Positions 31,498 through 40,470 of a stretch of 51,132 nucleotides of DNA are shown piece after piece. The DNA comes from Thaumarchaeota archaeon casp-thauma3 (GTDB lineage Archaea > Thermoproteota > Nitrososphaeria > Nitrososphaerales > Nitrosopumilaceae): the NCBI GenBank assembly GCA_001510275.1, contig LFEY01000026.1, positions 1 through 51,132 of the forward strand. Reading direction: 5' to 3'. The notes under the pieces were generated by a model. That model was not told where the DNA came from. It worked only from the letters and a program-made list of their open reading frames with translations, and made no database searches. The position numbers and the translations under genes were made by a program. The stretch's first letter is position 1. Each line of letters opens with the position of its first letter.

Positions 31498-32535
31498 TTA
31501 CATCTTTGGATCAAGGCCTTTTGCCAACCTTAATGCATCTACAAGACCATCTGCATATCCGATACTCAAAATAGCTACCTCATCTTGACCCTCTGCTAGG
31601 AATCTTTCTGTATCTTGAATGTACAATTCTGCATTTTCTAAAATAACTTGAAATTCTTTTTGATCATTATAGTATGGTCCAACTTCTTCGAGTGCCTCTC
31701 TGACCATTGGAACATATTTTTCTATCATCTGAATTGAAATCTTTTTTGTTTTTTCAGAATTATCAAATGGCTCATCCATACACTTCCCTAATCTCTTTAA
31801 TGCGTCTGATTCAGTAAAGTGTAATCTACCTGGAATAATTATTGTATGTGGTGGCTTTCCAAAATCTTTTTTCTTCAAGCTAGATATTTTGCCTGAAATA
31901 ATTAATTGATCTTTGAATCCAATTCTTGATGCAACTATGGCATAAGTAGATGAACTAATGACATTTCTTCTTTGTCCTTTTTCTGTTTCTAATAATCCAT
32001 TTAACGCATCTTTAGGATTCAAGAAAAAATCTTTGTTTTGATTGTACTCTAAAAGAAGTATGGTGTGATTTCCTTCAATAATATTTTTATAAATTATATA
32101 ATATGGTGTTGTAAGTGATTTTATTTCACTCATTATTGTTGCGATTCTTCCAACTTTGTAAAAATGTAAACCGCATTCCCCTATCATAGAAGTAAGTGAT
32201 GATGAGGCATGAATAGAATATGTCTTTATTTTTTCTTCAATTGCTCTTGTTCTTAATTCAATATGTGTTGTTGCAATGTATGGATCTCCATATGAGAGCA
32301 AAACTACTTTTTTCTTCTTTGCGTTTTGTAAAATCTCATTTCCATCTTCTACTAGCCATCTCTTTGCATGTTTGAATTCTCCTTTTGTTGCGTTTTTGAT
32401 TTTAACCAAATCTGATTTTCCAATTGGACTGGTAAACTGTTCAAGGTACACAATATCTGCCTTGGATAAAATATCTAATGCTTCATTAGGAATTGATTTG
32501 AATCCAGAAATTCCTAAACCTACAAACCAAAGCAT
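31498..32535 (-). CDS. dph5: Diphthine synthase fused to a DUF357 domain
   Basis: The N-terminal part (about 1-255) is diphthine synthase (DphB/Dph5), a SAM methylase for the diphthamide precursor on elongation factor 2. Signs are FVGLGISGFKSI, SYGDPYIATTH (81-91), and IIIPGRLHFTE. The C-terminal part (about 268-338) has the helical DUF357 signature (LENAELYIQDTERFLAEGQ...YADGLVDAL). Ordinary Dph5 is about 265 residues, so this is a fusion. DUF357 proteins are often encoded near nucleotidyltransferase genes in other archaea, and ribL follows here. ATG overlaps the lysK stop by one base. Confidence 0.9.
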   Translation of the reverse strand: MLWFVGLGISGFKSIPNEALDILSKADIVYLEQFTSPIGKSDLVKIKNATKGEFKHAKRWLVEDGNEILQNAKKKKVVLLSYGDPYIATTHIELRTRAIEEKIKTYSIHASSSLTSMIGECGLHFYKVGRIATIMSEIKSLTTPYYIIYKNIIEGNHTILLLEYNQNKDFFLNPKDALNGLLETEKGQRRNVISSSTYAIVASRIGFKDQLIISGKISSLKKKDFGKPPHTIIIPGRLHFTESDALKRLGKCMDEPFDNSEKTKKISIQMIEKYVPMVREALEEVGPYYNDQKEFQVILENAELYIQDTERFLAEGQDEVAILSIGYADGLVDALRLAKGLDPKM

Positions 32536-33662
32536 TACTGCATCTTTCTATCATGAAGTCTTTTTAAGTGCTGAAGCGTTTTCTTGAGAATTTCTATTCC
32601 TCTTAGATACTCATCAATTGAAACCTTCTCGTCAATTGTATGTGCCTCATGTGGGTCTCCTGGACCATATGTGACCACAGGAATATTCCATTGATTTCCA
32701 AGAACGTTCATGTCCCCTGTACCTGTTTTCCTGATTAGAGTTGGTCTTGAATGTTCTACCTCCATAATTCCAAGAGTAAATGCTCTAACTAATGGTGAAT
32801 TATGTGCTGCTTCAAATGGTTCTGTTTCATCAAGAATTGAATAAAACACTTCCACTTTTCTCTTCGTTGCAATTTCTTTGATCAATGTCGAGATTTTTTG
32901 TTCAATCGATTTACAGTTCATATCTACAGGAATTCTAATATCAAAAGTGGTTTCACATTCTTTTGGAGTTACATTGTGACTAATTCCTCCTTTAATTTCA
33001 GTTACAGTTGCAGTCAATAACATTCCTTTAGTTCTGTCATCTTGACCTGCTTCTAATCCTTCTTTTAGTTCTTTTGCAAAAATCATTGATTCTTGAATTG
33101 CATTTTTTGAAAGCCATGGAGCACTTGCATGAGAACTATCCTCTACGTTTACTTTAAGATTAATTGCTAATCTTCCTTTGTATGCAATTGTGATTTGTTT
33201 AATTCCACTTGGTTCTCCAAAAACTGCATAATCCACATTCATTTCATTTTTTACAAGACTTTTTATTCCTGTGGCACTTCCTTCCTCATCTACAGTTGCT
33301 ACAAAAATTATAGTTCCATTGTTATTTTGAATTGATGCTGCAGCAAATAACATCGCAATTAATGGCGCTTTTGCATCTGATGCTCCACGTCCATAAAGTG
33401 AATCACCCTCTTTTCTAACTTTAATTTTTCCTGGGACAACATCCATGTGTCCACATAACATAATTTTTGGTGAACCTGATCCTTTCTTTGCAATTAGATT
33501 TCCTACTTCATCAATTTGAATATCTTCAAATCCTAAATCATCACATTTATCTGCTAAAAAATCTGCCATTGGTTTTTCACTGAGAGATGGTGTGTAAAGT
33601 CTAAGTGCTTTCTCAAGTGTCTTTACTTCAAATCTTGGCGTTACTGTAAAATGAGTATTCAA
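32535..33662 (-). CDS. lysK: LysW-amino acid carboxypeptidase LysK/ArgE type (M20)
   Basis: A 375-residue M20 metallopeptidase that frees lysine or ornithine from the LysW carrier as the last step. Zinc ligands and catalysts: His72 and Asp74 (GHMDVVPG), Asp96 (GRGASDAK), Glu126-Glu127 (DEEGSATG), and His in PHEAHT. Single copy in the window, so it must serve both lysine and arginine branches as in Sulfolobales. Start is TTG at 33662, 4 bases after the lysX stop; no ATG is near. It is in the lysine transcription unit, next to lysX and diphthine synthase. Confidence 0.9.
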   Translation of the reverse strand: MNTHFTVTPRFEVKTLEKALRLYTPSLSEKPMADFLADKCDDLGFEDIQIDEVGNLIAKKGSGSPKIMLCGHMDVVPGKIKVRKEGDSLYGRGASDAKAPLIAMLFAAASIQNNNGTIIFVATVDEEGSATGIKSLVKNEMNVDYAVFGEPSGIKQITIAYKGRLAINLKVNVEDSSHASAPWLSKNAIQESMIFAKELKEGLEAGQDDRTKGMLLTATVTEIKGGISHNVTPKECETTFDIRIPVDMNCKSIEQKISTLIKEIATKRKVEVFYSILDETEPFEAAHNSPLVRAFTLGIMEVEHSRPTLIRKTGTGDMNVLGNQWNIPVVTYGPGDPHEAHTIDEKVSIDEYLRGIEILKKTLQHLKRLHDRKMQ

Positions 33663-33665
33663 TTT

Positions 33666-34514
33666 TTATTTGTCCATCTTTACTGCATAATCCAACATTA
33701 AGGAAGGAATATCAATTTCACATACTCTAACTGTGTTCTTGTATTCTGTTGTATTGTTAACTTCGTGTACGACTAATCCTTTTTCATCACTTTCCATCAA
33801 ATCTACACCTACAATATCTCCCTGAACTGCATTTTTTGCCTTAATACACATTTCTTCCATTTCTGGTGTAACCTTGCATGGCTCTGCTACTCCTCCAAGT
33901 GCCATATTTGTTTTCCAATTTCCATTACCTGAAGTCCTATAAATTGCTGCAACTATTTTATCCCCTACCATTATAGCTCTAATGTCTCTTGGTGGTCTTT
34001 TTACAAATTCTTCTAAATAATGAATATGATAAATTGGATACATATTTTCTCTACTTTCTAAAATTCCTTCAGCTGAATCTTTATCATTTAATTTTGAAAT
34101 TAATCTGCCCCAACTACCTACTGTTGGTTTAATTACTTTGGGAAATCCTTGTGTTTCTAATGCTTGCAAAGCTGCTTCTTTTGAAAAAGCAACTGTTGCA
34201 TCTGGTGTTGGTACACCAAATTTCTTTAGTAACATATGTGTAAATAATTTGTTTCCTGCAAAAATACCTGTATTAAGACAATTAATTACTTTGACTCCAA
34301 GTCCTTCTAGAGCTGCAGTTGAATGCAAGTTTCTATAGTAACTTACACATCTTTGGATGACTATGCCATAATCTTCAGGCTTTTTTTCTAAATCTAATGC
34401 TATTTTCTTACAATCTACCATCTGAATGTTAATGTTATTTTTTTTACCTGCTTCTAGTAGAGCTTTTTCTTCCCAACGGATGGTATCGTAAAGAATAGTA
34501 ACGTCAGGACTCAC
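33666..34514 (-). CDS. lysX: LysX-type ligase: LysW-2-aminoadipate ligase
   Basis: A 282-residue ATP-grasp (RimK-type) ligase that joins an amino acid to the C-terminal residue of LysW. Family features include KVIKPTVGSWGR and the C-terminal VHEVNNTTEYKN. I choose the GTG at 34514, which overlaps the lysW1 stop as GTGA and aligns with the start of the paralogue at 40303, over the TTG at 34523. It shares a transcription unit with homocitrate synthase, so aminoadipate (lysine route) is the likely substrate; the paralogue beside argG ends VEFKG at the same place. Assignment by context. Confidence 0.86.
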   Translation of the reverse strand: MSPDVTILYDTIRWEEKALLEAGKKNNINIQMVDCKKIALDLEKKPEDYGIVIQRCVSYYRNLHSTAALEGLGVKVINCLNTGIFAGNKLFTHMLLKKFGVPTPDATVAFSKEAALQALETQGFPKVIKPTVGSWGRLISKLNDKDSAEGILESRENMYPIYHIHYLEEFVKRPPRDIRAIMVGDKIVAAIYRTSGNGNWKTNMALGGVAEPCKVTPEMEEMCIKAKNAVQGDIVGVDLMESDEKGLVVHEVNNTTEYKNTVRVCEIDIPSLMLDYAVKMDK

Positions 34515-34678
34515 TGCCCCCAATCCTCGCCAACCGTTTGGGCAGGCTTTAGATCGAAACCATCTGAACCTTTTGCTAATTCAAAACTTGCTCCACATTC
34601 TGGACATGTTACAATTTCTCCTTCAAGTGCATCACTTGGTATGGAAATATCTGCATCACATTCTTCACATTTTGACAT
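34511..34678 (-). CDS. lysW: LysW amino-group carrier, paralogue 1, C-terminus Gln
   Basis: A 55-residue zinc-ribbon carrier (CEEC and CPEC knuckles) that holds the amino group during lysine synthesis. The family ends in EDWGE, and the gamma-carboxyl of the final Glu bonds the substrate. This copy ends EDWGQ: the codon is CAG, then TGA. The neighbour copy at 40303 ends EDWGE. As read, LysW1 would need deamidation, or another attachment, or has lost carrier function. I choose ATG at 34678; the longer reading from 34711 reaches into the upstream gene. It overlaps the lysX GTG. Confidence 0.9.
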   Translation of the reverse strand: MSKCEECDADISIPSDALEGEIVTCPECGASFELAKGSDGFDLKPAQTVGEDWGQ

Positions 34679-34700: not shown

Positions 34701-35867
34701 CTATTTATCACTAATTATCTTTTTTTCAAGTCTATCTTCAAGTGGAATTTCAATAAGATCTCCCATTCTAAGACCCTTCAATCCAGCTGCAACTGCTTTT
34801 GCACCTTCATCATCTTTTTCAAGACCTAATAACGACATCAGATAGGCAGCTCCTGTCTTTCCTGCCAATTCTCCAAAGACAATTCTTCTTCTATTTCCAA
34901 CTGCTCTTGGTGGTATGGGTTCATAGGCAGCAGGGTTTCTGAGTATTGCTGCTAGATGTGTTCCTGCTTTATGTTTGTATGCAGACGTTCCTACAATTGG
35001 TTTTGAGTCATATGGTTTGATTGATGTGTATTCTTCAATTAATCTAGAAAGATCCAGTAACATATCTAATCTGAAATCATTTGGTGATTTGTATAGATAC
35101 GTAAGTGTCACTGCAACTTCTGCAAGAGGCGGAATTCCTGTTCTTTCTCCAATACCGTCAATAGTAGTATGAATCTGATCAACTCCTGCATCACATGCTG
35201 AAAATGCATTTGCTAGTGCAAATCCAATATCATTGTGAACGTGAGCATCTAATGGTACATCTACTACTTCTCTTACTTTCTTGACAAAATTATACATTCC
35301 AATTGGACGTAAAATTCCAACTGTATCTGGAAGACTAATTCTATCTACTCCTGCTTCTTCGATTGCCTCGCAAACTTTGAGTAAAAATTCAGGCTCTGCT
35401 CTACTTCCATCTTCTACTGTGAATCTAATTTTAAGGCCATGAGATTTTGCATACTCTACAGTTTCTACAGCTCTGTTAAGTGCTTCTTCTCTTGAAATAC
35501 GTAGTTTATCTTTTAGATGAATGTCTGAAATTCCTAAATATGCAGCACACCATGTTGCATCACAATCTAATGAAATATCTATGTCTTCTTTGAGAGCACG
35601 TCCGTGAGAAACAATGTCTGCCTTTAATCCTTGTTTGATAATTGTCTTAGTTGCTTCTTTGTGATCCTTTGATACAATTGGTGAAATTTCAATTTGATCT
35701 ACTCCAAAATAATCTAACATCCATGCAATCTGAATTCTTTGTTTGTTTGTAAATGAAACACCTGGGTGCTGTTCTCCTTCTCTTAAGGTACTGTCTAAAA
35801 CTCTAATCTTCTTTGGATTTTTGTCATATGCGTTGTAGATGTTTGCATAGTGATTCGGATCTTTCAT
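34701..35867 (-). CDS. lysS: Homocitrate synthase (LysS/NifV-like)
   Basis: A 388-residue alpha-isopropylmalate-synthase superfamily enzyme, condensing acetyl-CoA with a 2-oxo acid. Features: DSTLREGEQHPGVSF (25-39), VDQIEIS, LPDTVGILRP and the metal motif DAHVHNDIG. Next to lysW1 and lysX it is most likely homocitrate synthase, the first enzyme of the aminoadipate lysine route. Isopropylmalate or citramalate synthase is an alternative. It lacks the regulatory C-terminal domain of LeuA, which supports homocitrate. A TATA-like box starts this second transcription unit of the run. lysT/lysU are not in the window. Confidence 0.86.
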   Translation of the reverse strand: MKDPNHYANIYNAYDKNPKKIRVLDSTLREGEQHPGVSFTNKQRIQIAWMLDYFGVDQIEISPIVSKDHKEATKTIIKQGLKADIVSHGRALKEDIDISLDCDATWCAAYLGISDIHLKDKLRISREEALNRAVETVEYAKSHGLKIRFTVEDGSRAEPEFLLKVCEAIEEAGVDRISLPDTVGILRPIGMYNFVKKVREVVDVPLDAHVHNDIGFALANAFSACDAGVDQIHTTIDGIGERTGIPPLAEVAVTLTYLYKSPNDFRLDMLLDLSRLIEEYTSIKPYDSKPIVGTSAYKHKAGTHLAAILRNPAAYEPIPPRAVGNRRRIVFGELAGKTGAAYLMSLLGLEKDDEGAKAVAAGLKGLRMGDLIEIPLEDRLEKKIISDK

Positions 35868-35984: not shown

Positions 35985-36404
35985 TTAGATTACTTTTTTC
36001 AAAATAATTACAGTATTTGTATCAACTACCCCTGGAATTTTTCGCAATGCATCAATACTACTATTAATTTCAGTAATGGTTGCTGCGCTGATAATTGTTG
36101 TAATGTCGTATTGACCTGTAATTTCATAAACTGTTTTTACTCCTTCTAATTTAGTAAGTTTTATAGAAACTTTAGATGTGTCTGTTGCAGAATCTACTGA
36201 AACTAAAACAATTGCACTAGTGGCGTTTTCTTCACCAAGTTCTAAAGTAAATTTTTTAATAGTTTGACTATCTACTAGATTTTTTACACGTCTTCTCACT
36301 GCTGATTCAGAAAGCTTTAGTTTTTTACCAATATCTACAAATGATTCTCTAGAGTTTTCTTTTAGATAATCGATAATTTTTTCATCTACTTTATCCTTAT
36401 ACAT
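35985..36404 (-). CDS. Lrp/AsnC family transcriptional regulator
   Basis: A 139-residue regulator with an N-terminal winged helix (about 5-60; LKLSESAVRRRVKNLVDSQTIKKF) and a C-terminal RAM ligand domain (about 65-138; GQYDITTIISAATITEINSSIDALRKIPGV). Such proteins sense amino acids. It is the last gene of the arginine block, overlapping the lysJ stop by 8 bases, and lies upstream of the homocitrate synthase promoter. Homologues in lysine-producing archaea (LysM of Sulfolobus) control LysW-route genes in response to lysine; that role is inferred here. Confidence 0.89.
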   Translation of the reverse strand: MYKDKVDEKIIDYLKENSRESFVDIGKKLKLSESAVRRRVKNLVDSQTIKKFTLELGEENATSAIVLVSVDSATDTSKVSIKLTKLEGVKTVYEITGQYDITTIISAATITEINSSIDALRKIPGVVDTNTVIILKKVI

Positions 36405-37572
36405 TATGTTTTTTCTCCTCTTCAGTTAGTACAGAATCAAGAGCATGTAAAACTTTTGTTATGTCTTCCTCAGATATTACTAGAGGTGGAAGAATTCTTA
36501 GTATATTTCTTCCAGAGTATAACATTAGAACACCTTCTTTTATCAATCCCATCAGAATATCTTTGATTTCAAATTTCATCTCTATTCCTATCATGAGTCC
36601 TTTTCCACGAATCTCTCTAATCATAGTGTGTTTTTCTTTTAGTTTCTCTAACCCTTCTCTGAAAACTTTTCCCATCTTTTCAGAATTTTCAATTAACCCA
36701 TCTTCTGTTAATGCTTTGAGAGCTGCAATTCCTGCTGCACAAGATAATGGGTTTCCTCCAAATGTTGAAGAATGTTCTCCCCTACTCATTGAATCTAGAA
36801 TGTCCGGTCTTACAAGTGTTGCACCCATTGGTACTCCTCCTGCTATTCCTTTTGCTAGACACAAAATATCTGGTATAGTATTCCAATGATCACAAGCCCA
36901 TAATCGTCCGGTTCTACCTAAACCAGCTTGTATTTCGTCAAAAATTAACAGAATTCCTTTTTCATCACAAAGTTTCCTTACTTCTTGCAAAAATCCTTCA
37001 GGTGCAACAATAATTCCACTTTCACCCTGAATTGGTTCTAAAATTACAAAAGACGTGTCCTCATCAATTGTTGAACGAAGTGATTCAATATCTCCAAAAG
37101 ATGCAAAAGAAACTTTCTCAACAAGTGGTTCAAATGCCTTTTTGTATTTTGGACTAAATGTTAATGACAGGGCACCAAAAGATTTTCCGTGGTAGGAGCC
37201 TTTCATTGCAATCATTCCTTTTTTACCTGTAAACTTTCTTGCAAACTTTATTGCAGCTTCAATTGCTTCTGCTCCGCTATTGTTTAGATGAACTTGTGTG
37301 AGTCCTTTTGGGGCTAGTCCGATTAGTATTTTCAAAAACTCTTCTCTTGTTTTGTTGTATAATGAACTATGAACTGTGATAATTTTATCAAGTTGTTCTT
37401 TTATCGCATTGTTGACTCTTTGATTTTGGTGACCTACTAATGCGACACCATATCCTCCCATACAGTCGATGTATTCTTTTCCATCTATATCCCATACATG
37501 AGATCCAATTCCTTTTTCAATTGTAACTGGAAACCTCTGATAGAGATTTCCCATAAATTGGTCTTCACTCAT
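36397..37572 (-). CDS. lysJ: LysW-aminoadipate/glutamate semialdehyde transaminase
   Basis: A 391-residue class III PLP transaminase (ArgD/LysJ). The Schiff-base Lys241 is in LAKGIAGGVPMG, with IFDEIQAGLGRTG before it and the cofactor phosphate site SGAEAIEAA. It turns the LysW-bound semialdehyde into LysW-bound lysine or ornithine. Single copy, so it should serve both branches. The annotated TTG at 37578 is less likely than ATG at 37572, which overlaps the lysZ stop by 8 bases. Ornithine/acetylornithine transaminases are close relatives, and the cluster decides the call. Confidence 0.9.
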   Translation of the reverse strand: MSEDQFMGNLYQRFPVTIEKGIGSHVWDIDGKEYIDCMGGYGVALVGHQNQRVNNAIKEQLDKIITVHSSLYNKTREEFLKILIGLAPKGLTQVHLNNSGAEAIEAAIKFARKFTGKKGMIAMKGSYHGKSFGALSLTFSPKYKKAFEPLVEKVSFASFGDIESLRSTIDEDTSFVILEPIQGESGIIVAPEGFLQEVRKLCDEKGILLIFDEIQAGLGRTGRLWACDHWNTIPDILCLAKGIAGGVPMGATLVRPDILDSMSRGEHSSTFGGNPLSCAAGIAALKALTEDGLIENSEKMGKVFREGLEKLKEKHTMIREIRGKGLMIGIEMKFEIKDILMGLIKEGVLMLYSGRNILRILPPLVISEEDITKVLHALDSVLTEEEKKHNV

Positions 37573-38368
37573 GTTCAATCACCGTACAATTATCATGTGC
37601 AATTGCAGAAGATATTGGATTTTCTTTTTGACCATTTGCAATCAATGCTTCTTTGACACCCATATCTAATGCTTCAGTAGATGCCAAAATCTTTTTCTCC
37701 ATCCCAGGTCCTATTTTTGGTATTATCTCTTTTGCTTCTGCTAGTGTTAATTTAGGAACAAGTTTGTCATCCATTAAGAGTCCATCCACATCTGTAATGA
37801 ATAATACTTTATCACTGCCTACTTTTCCAGCTACATATGCTGCAGCTCGGTCTCCATCCACATTAAGAAATTCTGACTCTTCACTAATTGCTATGGGTGA
37901 AATTACTGGTGTAAGTCCTTGTTCTAAGAGTAATTTGATTAATTCAGAGTTAATTTCTCTAATTTTTCCAGTATATCCGCCATCAATTGCTTGTTTTCTA
38001 CCTTTTTCGTTAACTATGATAAGTTTCTTTTTTCTGTCAGCTTGTATAATTTTTGCATCAACTCCTGAAAGGCCAATTGCATTAATTCCATTTTTCTGAA
38101 GCATCTGAACAATTCTCTTGTTAATTCTACCAGACATTACCATTGTAAAAATCTCTACAGTTTCTTTGTCTGTATATCTACTTTTGATTCCACTAGGTGA
38201 TGTTACAAATTTTGGTTCTTTTCCAAGTTGTTTACAAACTTTTGTAACTTCTTTTCCTCCTCCATGAACTAAAATCACTCCTTCTGATTCTACAACTCTT
38301 TTAATATCTGCAATTATGGATGGGTGTAAATTATCTACAACACTTCCCCCAATTTTGATTGTGATCAT
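37565..38368 (-). CDS. lysZ: LysW-aminoadipate/glutamate kinase
   Basis: A 267-residue amino-acid kinase family enzyme (ArgB/LysZ) that phosphorylates the side-chain carboxyl of LysW-bound aminoadipate or glutamate. Glycine-rich TIKIGGSVVDN, VHGGGKEV and the C-terminal FITDVDGLL are conserved. The LysW-binding basic surface cannot be judged here. It is the only such kinase in the window. It starts at ATG two bases after the lysY stop and its stop overlaps the lysJ start. Confidence 0.91.
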   Translation of the reverse strand: MITIKIGGSVVDNLHPSIIADIKRVVESEGVILVHGGGKEVTKVCKQLGKEPKFVTSPSGIKSRYTDKETVEIFTMVMSGRINKRIVQMLQKNGINAIGLSGVDAKIIQADRKKKLIIVNEKGRKQAIDGGYTGKIREINSELIKLLLEQGLTPVISPIAISEESEFLNVDGDRAAAYVAGKVGSDKVLFITDVDGLLMDDKLVPKLTLAEAKEIIPKIGPGMEKKILASTEALDMGVKEALIANGQKENPISSAIAHDNCTVIEHE

Positions 38369-38370
38369 TT

Positions 38371-39417
38371 CTAAACAGGAGTTAGCGGAGTATATCTTAG
38401 TCCGTCCATTTCATCAAAACCGCACATTATATTCATGTTTTGAATGGCAGAACCTGCTGCACCTTTCATTAAATTATCTGATGCAGATAATGCGATTAAT
38501 CTATGATTATCTTCATCTATATCAAATCCAATATCGCAAAAGTTTGAACCAACCAAGAATTTTGGATCTGGGAATTTGTATAATCCCTTTTTGTCTCGAA
38601 TAAGTCTGATGAATTTTTCATCACCATAAGCTTGACGATACAATTTCCATAATTCTTTTTCTTCAACATCTTTTTTCATGAATGTATGGTTTGTACATAA
38701 AATTCCACGAACCACATCAACTGCATGTGGGCTCATCGAAACATGAATCTTCTTTCCCGCAATTTCACTAAGCTCTTGTTCAATCTCACCTGTGTGTCTG
38801 TGCTTTGCTGGTTTGTATGGTCTGATTACTCCTGCTCTCATTGCATGTGCAGTACCAGAACCAGAACCTGCACCGGATGACCCAATCTTTGAATCTACAA
38901 TTATGTGCTCTGTATCAATAATATTATTTCGAATTAATGGTGCAAGTGCTAGTATTGATGTAACTGCCATACAGCCTGGGCAAGAAACAAGTTGTGATTT
39001 TTTGATTTCTTCTCTGTGTAATTCGGGAATTCCAAAAACTGATTTTGGTAAATAATCTGGATGTGGATGTTCCCATCCATACCATTTATCATAATCTTCT
39101 TTATTATGTAATCGATAATCTGCACTCAAATCAATTATTTTGATGCCTCTATCATAGAGCGCCTTTACAATTTCAGTTGCAGTACCATGTGGAACTGCTG
39201 TGAATATTATATCACATTTGTCAGTTAATTTATCATAATCTAATTCTGAGAAAGTAAGATCGGTAAATCCCTTCAAACTTGGTTGTATCCTGTGAAGATA
39301 TTCTCCAACATGTTGTCTTGATGTGACCATGGAGATTTCAACATCTGGATGGTTAACGAGAAGACGAAGTGTCTCTCCTCCAACATAACCTGATGCTCCT
39401 ACAACACCTACTTTCAT
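38371..39417 (-). CDS. lysY: LysW-aminoadipyl/glutamyl-phosphate reductase
   Basis: A 348-residue ArgC/LysY reductase that uses NADPH to turn the acyl phosphate on LysW into a semialdehyde. The dinucleotide motif VVGASGYVGGE is at 5-15, the catalytic Cys149 is in SCPGCMAVTS and HAVDVVRG lies near the substrate site. A strong GAGGAGG ribosome-binding site lies 5-6 bases before the ATG on the minus strand (about 39423-39429), suggesting independent translation initiation within the operon. Single copy, serving both branches. Confidence 0.92.
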   Translation of the reverse strand: MKVGVVGASGYVGGETLRLLVNHPDVEISMVTSRQHVGEYLHRIQPSLKGFTDLTFSELDYDKLTDKCDIIFTAVPHGTATEIVKALYDRGIKIIDLSADYRLHNKEDYDKWYGWEHPHPDYLPKSVFGIPELHREEIKKSQLVSCPGCMAVTSILALAPLIRNNIIDTEHIIVDSKIGSSGAGSGSGTAHAMRAGVIRPYKPAKHRHTGEIEQELSEIAGKKIHVSMSPHAVDVVRGILCTNHTFMKKDVEEKELWKLYRQAYGDEKFIRLIRDKKGLYKFPDPKFLVGSNFCDIGFDIDEDNHRLIALSASDNLMKGAAGSAIQNMNIMCGFDEMDGLRYTPLTPV

Positions 39418-39445: not shown

Positions 39446-40303
39446 TTATTTCCTAATATGGTTTAGAGCAAATTCTACCATTTCTTTTGGAATGTTTCGT
39501 TGTGTAACTCTTGCCAATCCTTTGAATTCTACAGTATTGTTGACTTCATGTACTACTAGGCCTCTTTTGTCGTCTTCCATCATATCTATTCCTAAAATTC
39601 CCCCGCCCATGGCTTTTGATGCTTTTGCTGCCATATCTTCTATCTCTTTTGTGATCTCACAAAGTTCTGGATCTGCCCCAAGTGCTATGTTTGTCTTAAA
39701 ACCACCTGATGATTTTCTGTACATGGCTGCAATAGGATCATCTCCTATAGTGATTACTCTAATGTCTCTTGGTGGTCTTTTGATTAATTCCTGCAGATAG
39801 TAAATCCTATCATGTGGACTATCTGTAATATTTCTTATCTCACAAATTGCATCCATTGCATCTTTATCTTTAATTGGCATTACTCCTCTTCCCCAACTTC
39901 CTATTACTGGTTTGATTACTAGAGGATACCCAACTTTTTCTAAATTTTCTGCTGCACTTTCACTTGAAAATGAAAAGTATGTTTTTGGTGTTGGAATATT
40001 ATTTTTTTTCAAAAGTAAAGTCATAAACATCTTATTTCCACAAATATGTGCAACCTCGAATTTGTTTAGAACTGGAATGTCCATAAATTCCAGACTAGCA
40101 GTAAAGTGAAGTCCTCTAAAATAACTAACACATCTTTCTAAAACAATATCCCCAAAGTCATAGTCGTCTTTTTTACTATCTGTGTTAACTTGAGTAATTT
40201 TTGCATCTATCATAATTGCATCGTGTCCGAGTTCTGATGCCTCTTTTTGAAGCATCTTTTCTTCCGTCCTTAAACGGTCAAACACAATACATATTTTTGA
40301 CAT
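39446..40303 (-). CDS. argX: ArgX-type ligase: LysW-glutamate ligase
   Basis: A 285-residue ATP-grasp ligase, paralogous to the one at 33666. It joins an amino acid to LysW, and its place beside argG and lysW2 points to glutamate and the arginine route. KPVIGSWGRG binds nucleotide and the C-terminal VHEVNNTVEFKG shapes the substrate pocket; the paralogue has TTEYKN there. The ATG overlaps the lysW2 TAA as TAATG, so ligase and carrier are translated together. The Glu versus aminoadipate specificity is inferred from context. Confidence 0.87.
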   Translation of the reverse strand: MSKICIVFDRLRTEEKMLQKEASELGHDAIMIDAKITQVNTDSKKDDYDFGDIVLERCVSYFRGLHFTASLEFMDIPVLNKFEVAHICGNKMFMTLLLKKNNIPTPKTYFSFSSESAAENLEKVGYPLVIKPVIGSWGRGVMPIKDKDAMDAICEIRNITDSPHDRIYYLQELIKRPPRDIRVITIGDDPIAAMYRKSSGGFKTNIALGADPELCEITKEIEDMAAKASKAMGGGILGIDMMEDDKRGLVVHEVNNTVEFKGLARVTQRNIPKEMVEFALNHIRK

Positions 40304-40470
40304 TACTCCCCCCAGTCTTCGCCTACACTTTCTGCTTGTTTAAGCTCGACATTTGATCCTTCTTTTTTTGCAATTTCAAAGTCAGCACCACAATCAGGAC
40401 AGGAGACTATTTCTCCAACTGAGGCATCGTCTGGGATGTTTAATGCTGCATCACATTCTGGGCAGTTCAT
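40303..40470 (-). CDS. lysW: LysW amino-group carrier, paralogue 2, C-terminus Glu
   Basis: A 55-residue carrier protein, too short for a 60-residue cutoff. It has CPEC and CPDC knuckles, an acidic surface, and ends in the canonical EDWGE, whose final Glu carries the substrate. Its ATG overlaps the argG stop (ATGA) and its stop overlaps the argX ATG (TAATG). It should be the active carrier for LysW-glutamate in arginine synthesis. It could also supply the lysine branch if LysW1, ending in Gln, is not charged. Confidence 0.92.
   Translation of the reverse strand: MNCPECDAALNIPDDASVGEIVSCPDCGADFEIAKKEGSNVELKQAESVGEDWGE

Follow-up and report, generated by a model that had tools for sequence, protein, structure and literature searches.

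The lysine and arginine genes analysed here raise the question of how an amino-group carrier can work when the residue that should hold its cargo is encoded in a blocked form. In described systems the last Glu of LysW is the essential attachment residue, and LysX couples aminoadipate, by its alpha-amine, to the gamma-carboxyl of this Glu (PMC10433800). The window, by which we mean the whole 51,132-nucleotide stretch of archaeal DNA that was analysed, encodes two such carriers on its minus strand. An earlier note on this DNA had read the tail of LysW1 as EDWGQ (codon CAG) and that of LysW2 as EDWGE, and re-reading of both genes confirmed this: lysW1 (34678–34511) runs ATG...GGC GAG GAT TGG GGG CAG TGA and encodes 55 residues with the tail VGEDWGQ, whereas LysW2 (40470–40303) ends in VGEDWGE. 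The accompanying claim, that the encoded Gln leaves such a carrier blocked for gamma-linkage, is likewise upheld.

A LysW family carrier ending in Gln

The cluster that holds both carriers lies on the minus strand in the order argG, lysW2, argX, lysY/argC, lysZ/argB, lysJ/argD, Lrp-type regulator, homocitrate-synthase-like gene, lysW1, lysX and lysK. By ascending coordinate its features are:

32535–33662, minus: lysK, M20 hydrolase that releases lysine or ornithine from LysW, candidate deamidase; best solved relative 5xoy, a [LysW]-lysine hydrolase
33666–34514, minus: lysX, ATP-grasp ligase with a GTG start and GSWGR motif; TIGR02144, 325 bits
34511–34678, minus: lysW1, 55-residue amino-group carrier with two CxxC zinc motifs and the tail EDWGQ; NF041070, 89.2 bits
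34514–34516, minus: last codon of lysW1, CAG (Gln), where described LysW proteins have Glu
34701–35867, minus: homocitrate-synthase-like gene, lying upstream of lysW1; matches LysS/LeuA-type profiles, none of them reaching its curated cut-off
35985–36404, minus: Lrp/AsnC-type regulator, LysM-like by position; named from its translation and kept in the cluster of relatives
36397–37578, minus: lysJ/argD aminotransferase, common to both routes; profile match
37565–38368, minus: lysZ/argB, [LysW]-aminoadipate/glutamate kinase, common to both routes; NF010662, 308 bits against a cut-off of 194
38371–39417, minus: lysY/argC reductase, common to both routes; TIGR01850
39446–40303, minus: argX, second ATP-grasp ligase with the GSWGR motif and Gly-Phe specificity residues (GGFKTN)
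40303–40470, minus: lysW2 (argW), 55-residue carrier with the tail EDWGE; NF041070, 91.7 bits
40467–41666, minus: argG, argininosuccinate synthase, named from its translation; a neighbour kept in relatives

Profile matches assign a single kinase, a single reductase and a single aminotransferase to the cluster, and the Gly-Phe type, to which GGFKTN belongs, is described for glutamate-specific ArgX (PMC10433800). The product of 34701–35867 matched models for homocitrate, isopropylmalate and citramalate synthases but reached the curated cut-off of none of them. The GTG start of lysX (34514–34512) overlaps the TGA stop of lysW1 (34513–34511) as GTGA.

Both carriers exceed the curated cut-off of 75 bits for NF041070, the NCBIfam profile of the archaeal carrier LysW/ArgW. 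LysW1 also matches solved LysW chains, retains the CEEC and CPEC zinc-binding motifs and the EDWG tail, and is encoded beside the lysX ligase and the common LysZ/Y/J/K set, which is the gene context of the family. The encoded C-terminal Glu of LysW proteins is replaced in LysW1 by a conserved CAG. By sequence and gene context, LysW1 is a variant of the LysW family in which the classical reactive residue is absent as encoded. The LysW and ArgW proteins of Thermus, Sulfolobus, Thermococcus and Natrinema belong to the same family, with CxxC zinc motifs and the EDWG tail, and their systems share the ligase GSWGR motif and the clustered LysZ/Y/J/K enzymes; those carriers are Glu-ended, with the gamma-carboxyl as attachment site (PMC10433800), whereas the window's LysW1 encodes Gln. 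We regard the Gln-ended protein as a modified form of an established carrier and not as a new kind of system. A search of the open-access literature found no report of a Gln-ended LysW and no biochemistry on one.

Conservation and spread of the Gln residue

A LysW carrier is present in 58 of 60 genomes from the window's genus, and across that genus 29 of 30 lysW1 genes read (the window's included) end in Gln; the Gly codon before it varies between GGA, GGG and GGC while CAG is unchanged. Of 300 genomes sampled from the order, 286 gave an EDWG(E/Q)-stop match and 200 a Gln-type match. Sequencing error, one of the alternatives raised earlier, is excluded, as is chance, by this conservation over some 200 sampled genomes and by a CAG that stays constant beside a drifting Gly codon. 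The Gln is real and conserved, as the earlier note had supposed: GAG in all close relatives was not seen, and the genus has Glu only in a single small subclade (G032, G046 and G322). In this subclade (loci L031, L071 and L111) the start of lysX is altered and one residue shorter, that of L031 beginning MTDVTIL in place of the usual M(S/N)PDVTIL, which suggests that the junction was rewritten together with the Gln/Glu change. Overlap with the lysX start was rejected as a general cause of Gln, since carriers in family f2 and genus g27 end in CAGTAA or CAATAA with no overlap, and GAGTGA too would preserve the GTG start.

Within the window's family (f1), the distinct LysW1 sequences comprise 55 ending in Gln and 3 ending in Glu. 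This ratio bears on the idea that a minor Glu-ended pool, arising by mistranslation through incompletely amidated Glu-tRNA(Gln) or by spontaneous deamidation, would suffice for a carrier that acts catalytically. Archaea do make Gln-tRNA by transamidation, and LysW is recycled, so that a small active pool could serve. Such a leak would nevertheless not hold Gln at fixation in most of f1, and in cold-water organisms Gln deamidates only slowly by itself; we consider this explanation highly improbable.

At the level of the order, Gln occurs in nearly all of f1, in genus g21 of f2 and in f8, and no Gln-ended LysW was found among the sampled genomes of families f3–f7 and f9–f17. Among the matches listed, amoA was confined to f1, f2, f3 and f8, so that by these amoA rows Gln within the order belongs to ammonia-oxidising families only; f3 and genus g48 of f2 bear amoA but have Glu in both carriers. 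Holders of a Gln-ended LysW include Nitrosopumilus salaria BD31, Nitrosotenuis chungbukensis MY2, Nitrosotalea, Nitrosopelagicus, Nitrosarchaeum, Cenarchaeum, Nitrososphaera, Nitrosocosmicus and Nitrosocaldus tengchongensis. The residue is not a trait of ammonia oxidisers alone, a reading refuted by Gln-ended LysW in other Thermoproteota, in Jordarchaeia and in Undinarchaeales. Outside the order it lies inside lysW-lysX-argB/C/D-lysK sets in Thermoproteota families f25, f30 and f51 and in Jordarchaeia, f51 having in addition a second, Glu-ended LysW elsewhere, and it lies next to lysX both in f48 and in archaeon UBA55; the LysW of UBA55 is very similar to that of an Undinarchaeales contig. Matches to the GEDWGQ pattern in bacteria were, among those listed, only other proteins or non-coding, and a match in the Thermoproteota genome G353 was likewise rejected as non-coding, the LysW of that genome being Glu-ended.

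Near relatives can differ in the last residue. G443 has Gln and G408 has Glu, both being single-contig genomes with one LysW; G435 has Gln and G460 has Glu although their LysX proteins are 87% identical; and in f30 genera g78 and g128 have Gln while g103 has Glu. On the ligase tree we counted at least 14 Glu/Gln state changes, 8 of them forced by well-supported branches, an approximate count since the tree (132 rows) was made by a quick method and contains several long branches.

Carrier combinations, the last site and the pathway enzymes

Every combination of Gln and Glu in the lysine and arginine carriers was seen. The lysine carrier has Gln and the arginine carrier Glu in most of f1, in f2 g21 and in G091; the reverse holds in G128 and G169; both have Gln in f8 genera g49, g39, g60, g61 and g63, and two Gln-ended carriers are likewise found in f1 g7; both have Glu in f3, in f2 g48 and in the G032/G046/G322 subclade; and in f8 g27 the sole carrier is Gln-ended. 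The earlier framing of the feature as a matter of lysine synthesis therefore holds in part: the lysine carrier is affected, but arginine synthesis is equally concerned, because in f8 the arginine carrier is often Gln-ended too, or instead. The feature is limited neither to the lysine carrier nor to Nitrosopumilales.

Profile searches of complete single-contig genomes found exactly one LysW, ending in Gln, in G066, G100 and G108, and exactly two, both ending in Gln, in G115, G141 and G144; G340 and G443 each have one LysW, also Gln-ended. These genomes keep a ligase beside the carrier, from which it follows that the Gln carrier must work, and their intact clusters lead us to infer that they make their own lysine and arginine. 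The proposal of a non-functional or regulatory LysW1, with both routes supplied by the Glu-ended LysW2, is thereby refuted for genomes whose LysW are all Gln-ended (such as G066, G115 and G443), and the preserved tail and zinc motifs of LysW1 also speak against it. A single LysW does serve both ligases in Sulfolobus (PMC10433800), and in G283 (locus L126, G283:C1:1772000-1791000), a large genome of 3.17 Mb whose genus group, g11, also includes a Cenarchaeum-sized one, lysX persists with the Glu-ended LysW2 as the only LysW left, lysW1 having gone from between the homocitrate-synthase gene and lysX. Overall this proposal is scarcely credible. The retention of lysX in G283 further implies that, in a Gln lineage, LysX has to work with a Glu carrier.

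The range of residues tolerated at the last site provides a second view of its function. Among 164 distinct LysW sequences recovered with a profile that ignores the last residue, that residue is Glu in 86, Gln in 78 and never anything else; the clean test is the subset of 54 fetched by homology (39 Gln and 15 Glu), the remaining loci having been picked partly by the E/Q pattern. Glu and Gln codons are one base apart, and Lys, His, Arg, Leu and Pro lie equally one base from CAG, as Lys, Asp, Ala, Gly and Val do from GAG, so that the restriction is selective. Glu and Gln are residues with a gamma-carbonyl, and the restriction is what would be expected if that carbonyl were the attachment point. 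It speaks against decay and against attachment of the amino acid to the alpha-carboxyl of the terminal Gln. In the protein as encoded, the last residue has no free carboxyl other than the alpha-carboxyl; were this the attachment point, however, the side chain could drift, and the same LysK serves the Glu carrier in the window's genome, with one kinase, one reductase and one aminotransferase in the cluster. The gamma-linkage is moreover established for Glu-ended LysW (PMC10433800), and alpha-attachment is in our judgement very unlikely. Decay of LysW1 is excluded, in agreement with the earlier argument from its zinc motifs, length and lysX overlap; conservation and the Gln-only genomes indicate a functional carrier.

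If the ligases had adapted to Gln, residues in them should track the state of the carrier. The GSWGR motif of the ligase reads the EDWG tail of the carrier (PMC10433800), and it is invariant in the LysX/ArgX rows shown. In the LysX alignment no site other than the overlapping codon follows the Gln/Glu state among ammonia oxidisers, and the ArgX sites that separate Gln from Glu follow lineage, Gln in that carrier being almost confined to f8; ligase adaptation was accordingly rejected. These data leave room for a reading in which LysX and ArgX load Gln carriers directly, exchanging the gamma-amide for the amino acid via an acyl-phosphate. With ADP and phosphate bound, the ligase would form the acyl-phosphate from the Gln amide, ammonia would leave, and the acyl group would pass to aminoadipate or glutamate, much as in the gamma-glutamyl-transferase activity of glutamine synthetase; the first round would proceed with no free Glu form, one ligase would accept both carriers alike, and no deamidase or other extra gene would be needed. 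In favour of this reading, recognition of the EDWG tail is known for the ligase, none of its sites follows the Gln/Glu state, the exclusivity of Glu and Gln fits, and Dop applies ADP/phosphate chemistry to such a Gln (PMC8599861). Against it, LysX must have retained its ordinary reaction, as G283 implies. We also know of no precedent among ATP-grasp ligases for loading from a Gln amide, and direct loading seems unlikely.

LysK gave a similar picture. The residues invariant across 46 LysK sequences include H73, D75, D97, E127 and E128, which, going by the known family layout, bind the metal or act in catalysis. None of the active-site positions follows the Gln/Glu state within the ammonia oxidisers. 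Positions S96, A131 and L298, which differ between ammonia oxidisers and others, were rejected as a cause, being shared by Glu-only ammonia oxidisers while Gln occurs outside the group. One M20 protein, LysK, was found in the window's genome (96.6% complete), which encodes two LysW, one Gln-ended and one Glu-ended, and LysK must therefore discharge both.

A search for homologues of PafA/Dop (Pup_ligase, PF03136) found none in 8 genomes, while the Corynebacterium control was found. With unrelated lineages carrying the same gene set, no Dop and a single M20 protein, the earlier suggestion of a missing deamidase as an unknown lysine-synthesis gene is unsupported. A separate, widespread archaeal amidase or glutaminase could deamidate LysW, and any broad amidase would suit the scattered distribution; the negative search weighs lightly here, as it covers Dop and PafA only, and we rate such an enzyme as rather unlikely. 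That Gln recurs across unrelated lineages sharing this gene set hints at a capability of the pathway itself, and an enzyme already in the pathway is favoured as the putative unblocking agent.

A possible Gln pro-carrier

On the comparative evidence, cells probably unblock Gln-ended LysW after synthesis. Deamidation is the step that we infer, with less certainty that LysK is its agent; we give an even chance to the full model, in which LysW1 is a pro-carrier whose Gln gamma-amide would be opened once per molecule by LysK before normal charging by LysX. LysW1 would be made as the inactive Gln pro-form of a working amino-group carrier, and the gamma-amide of its last residue would be hydrolysed to Glu once in each molecule's life. 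LysX would next charge the matured protein via the gamma-carboxyl, and it would then cycle like any LysW. LysK would be the likeliest deamidase, since in every round it cuts the amide that joins this gamma-carbonyl to the alpha-amine of lysine or ornithine; the amide of Gln is in effect its usual bond with ammonia as the leaving group. A weak side activity would suffice, given that each carrier would need a single slow event in its lifetime, as against many rounds of charging. The state changes on the ligase tree, the lack of a tracking site in ligase or LysK among ammonia oxidisers and the invariant GSWGR motif would fit a common Glu intermediate. That the last side chain matters is indicated by the arginine auxotrophy of the E54A mutant of Natrinema ArgW (PMC10433800), and in Dop one enzyme performs both isopeptide cleavage and Gln deamidation (PMC8599861).

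Several points weigh against the LysK model. LysK shows no change linked to the Gln state. Recognition by M20 enzymes usually involves the carboxylate of the amino acid that leaves; ammonia has none, so LysK may be a poor deamidase. In f1, moreover, LysW1 is near-constantly Gln and LysW2 near-constantly Glu, which suggests that the carriers are not freely interchangeable, a pattern for which the model does not account.

The parallel with Pup drawn in the earlier note is apt in the alternation of Gln and Glu and in the gamma-linkage, as a PupQ/Dop-like working rather than as homology. Like LysW, Pup is a small protein whose encoded last residue is Gln or Glu, depending on the species; it is attached via the gamma-carboxyl of its last residue, and Dop both deamidates it and cuts the isopeptide bond (PMC8599861). 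LysW1 is a zinc-motif LysW and not a member of the Pup family, the likeness being limited to the Gln/Glu alternation at the last residue. Pup is a degradation tag whereas LysW is a metabolite carrier, and while PafA/Dop homologues were absent from the 8 genomes, the proposed LysW deamidase is an M20 metal hydrolase.

Ammonia-oxidising archaea are among the most abundant archaea, and nearly all of those sampled encode Gln at a position described as an essential Glu; some of them lack a Glu copy entirely. Either the synthesis of lysine and arginine would include a maturation of the carrier that has gone unrecognised, or ligase chemistry would be broader than thought, with consequences for metabolic models and for heterologous expression of these pathways. 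A maturation step would be a second Glu/Gln pro-form switch, unrelated to Pup and posing the same puzzle of why Gln is kept.

The arrangement of the genes also varies between lineages. In Candidatus Jordarchaeia (L142, L190) the sole, Gln-ended LysW leads a compact lysW-lysX-argC-argB-argD-lysK cluster with one ligase. In the Nitrosocaldus-like genus g21 of f2 (L032, L034, L036), lysW1-lysX-lysK stands separate from an argG-lysW2-argX-argC-B-D cluster, and the two cluster halves are likewise separated in f8 g49. In G234 (2.05 Mb, g11; L125, G234:C1:1459000-1478000) the Glu-ended lysW2 is kept, while argX, argB/C/D and argG were not detected nearby, as if the arginine route had moved or been lost with the carrier retained.
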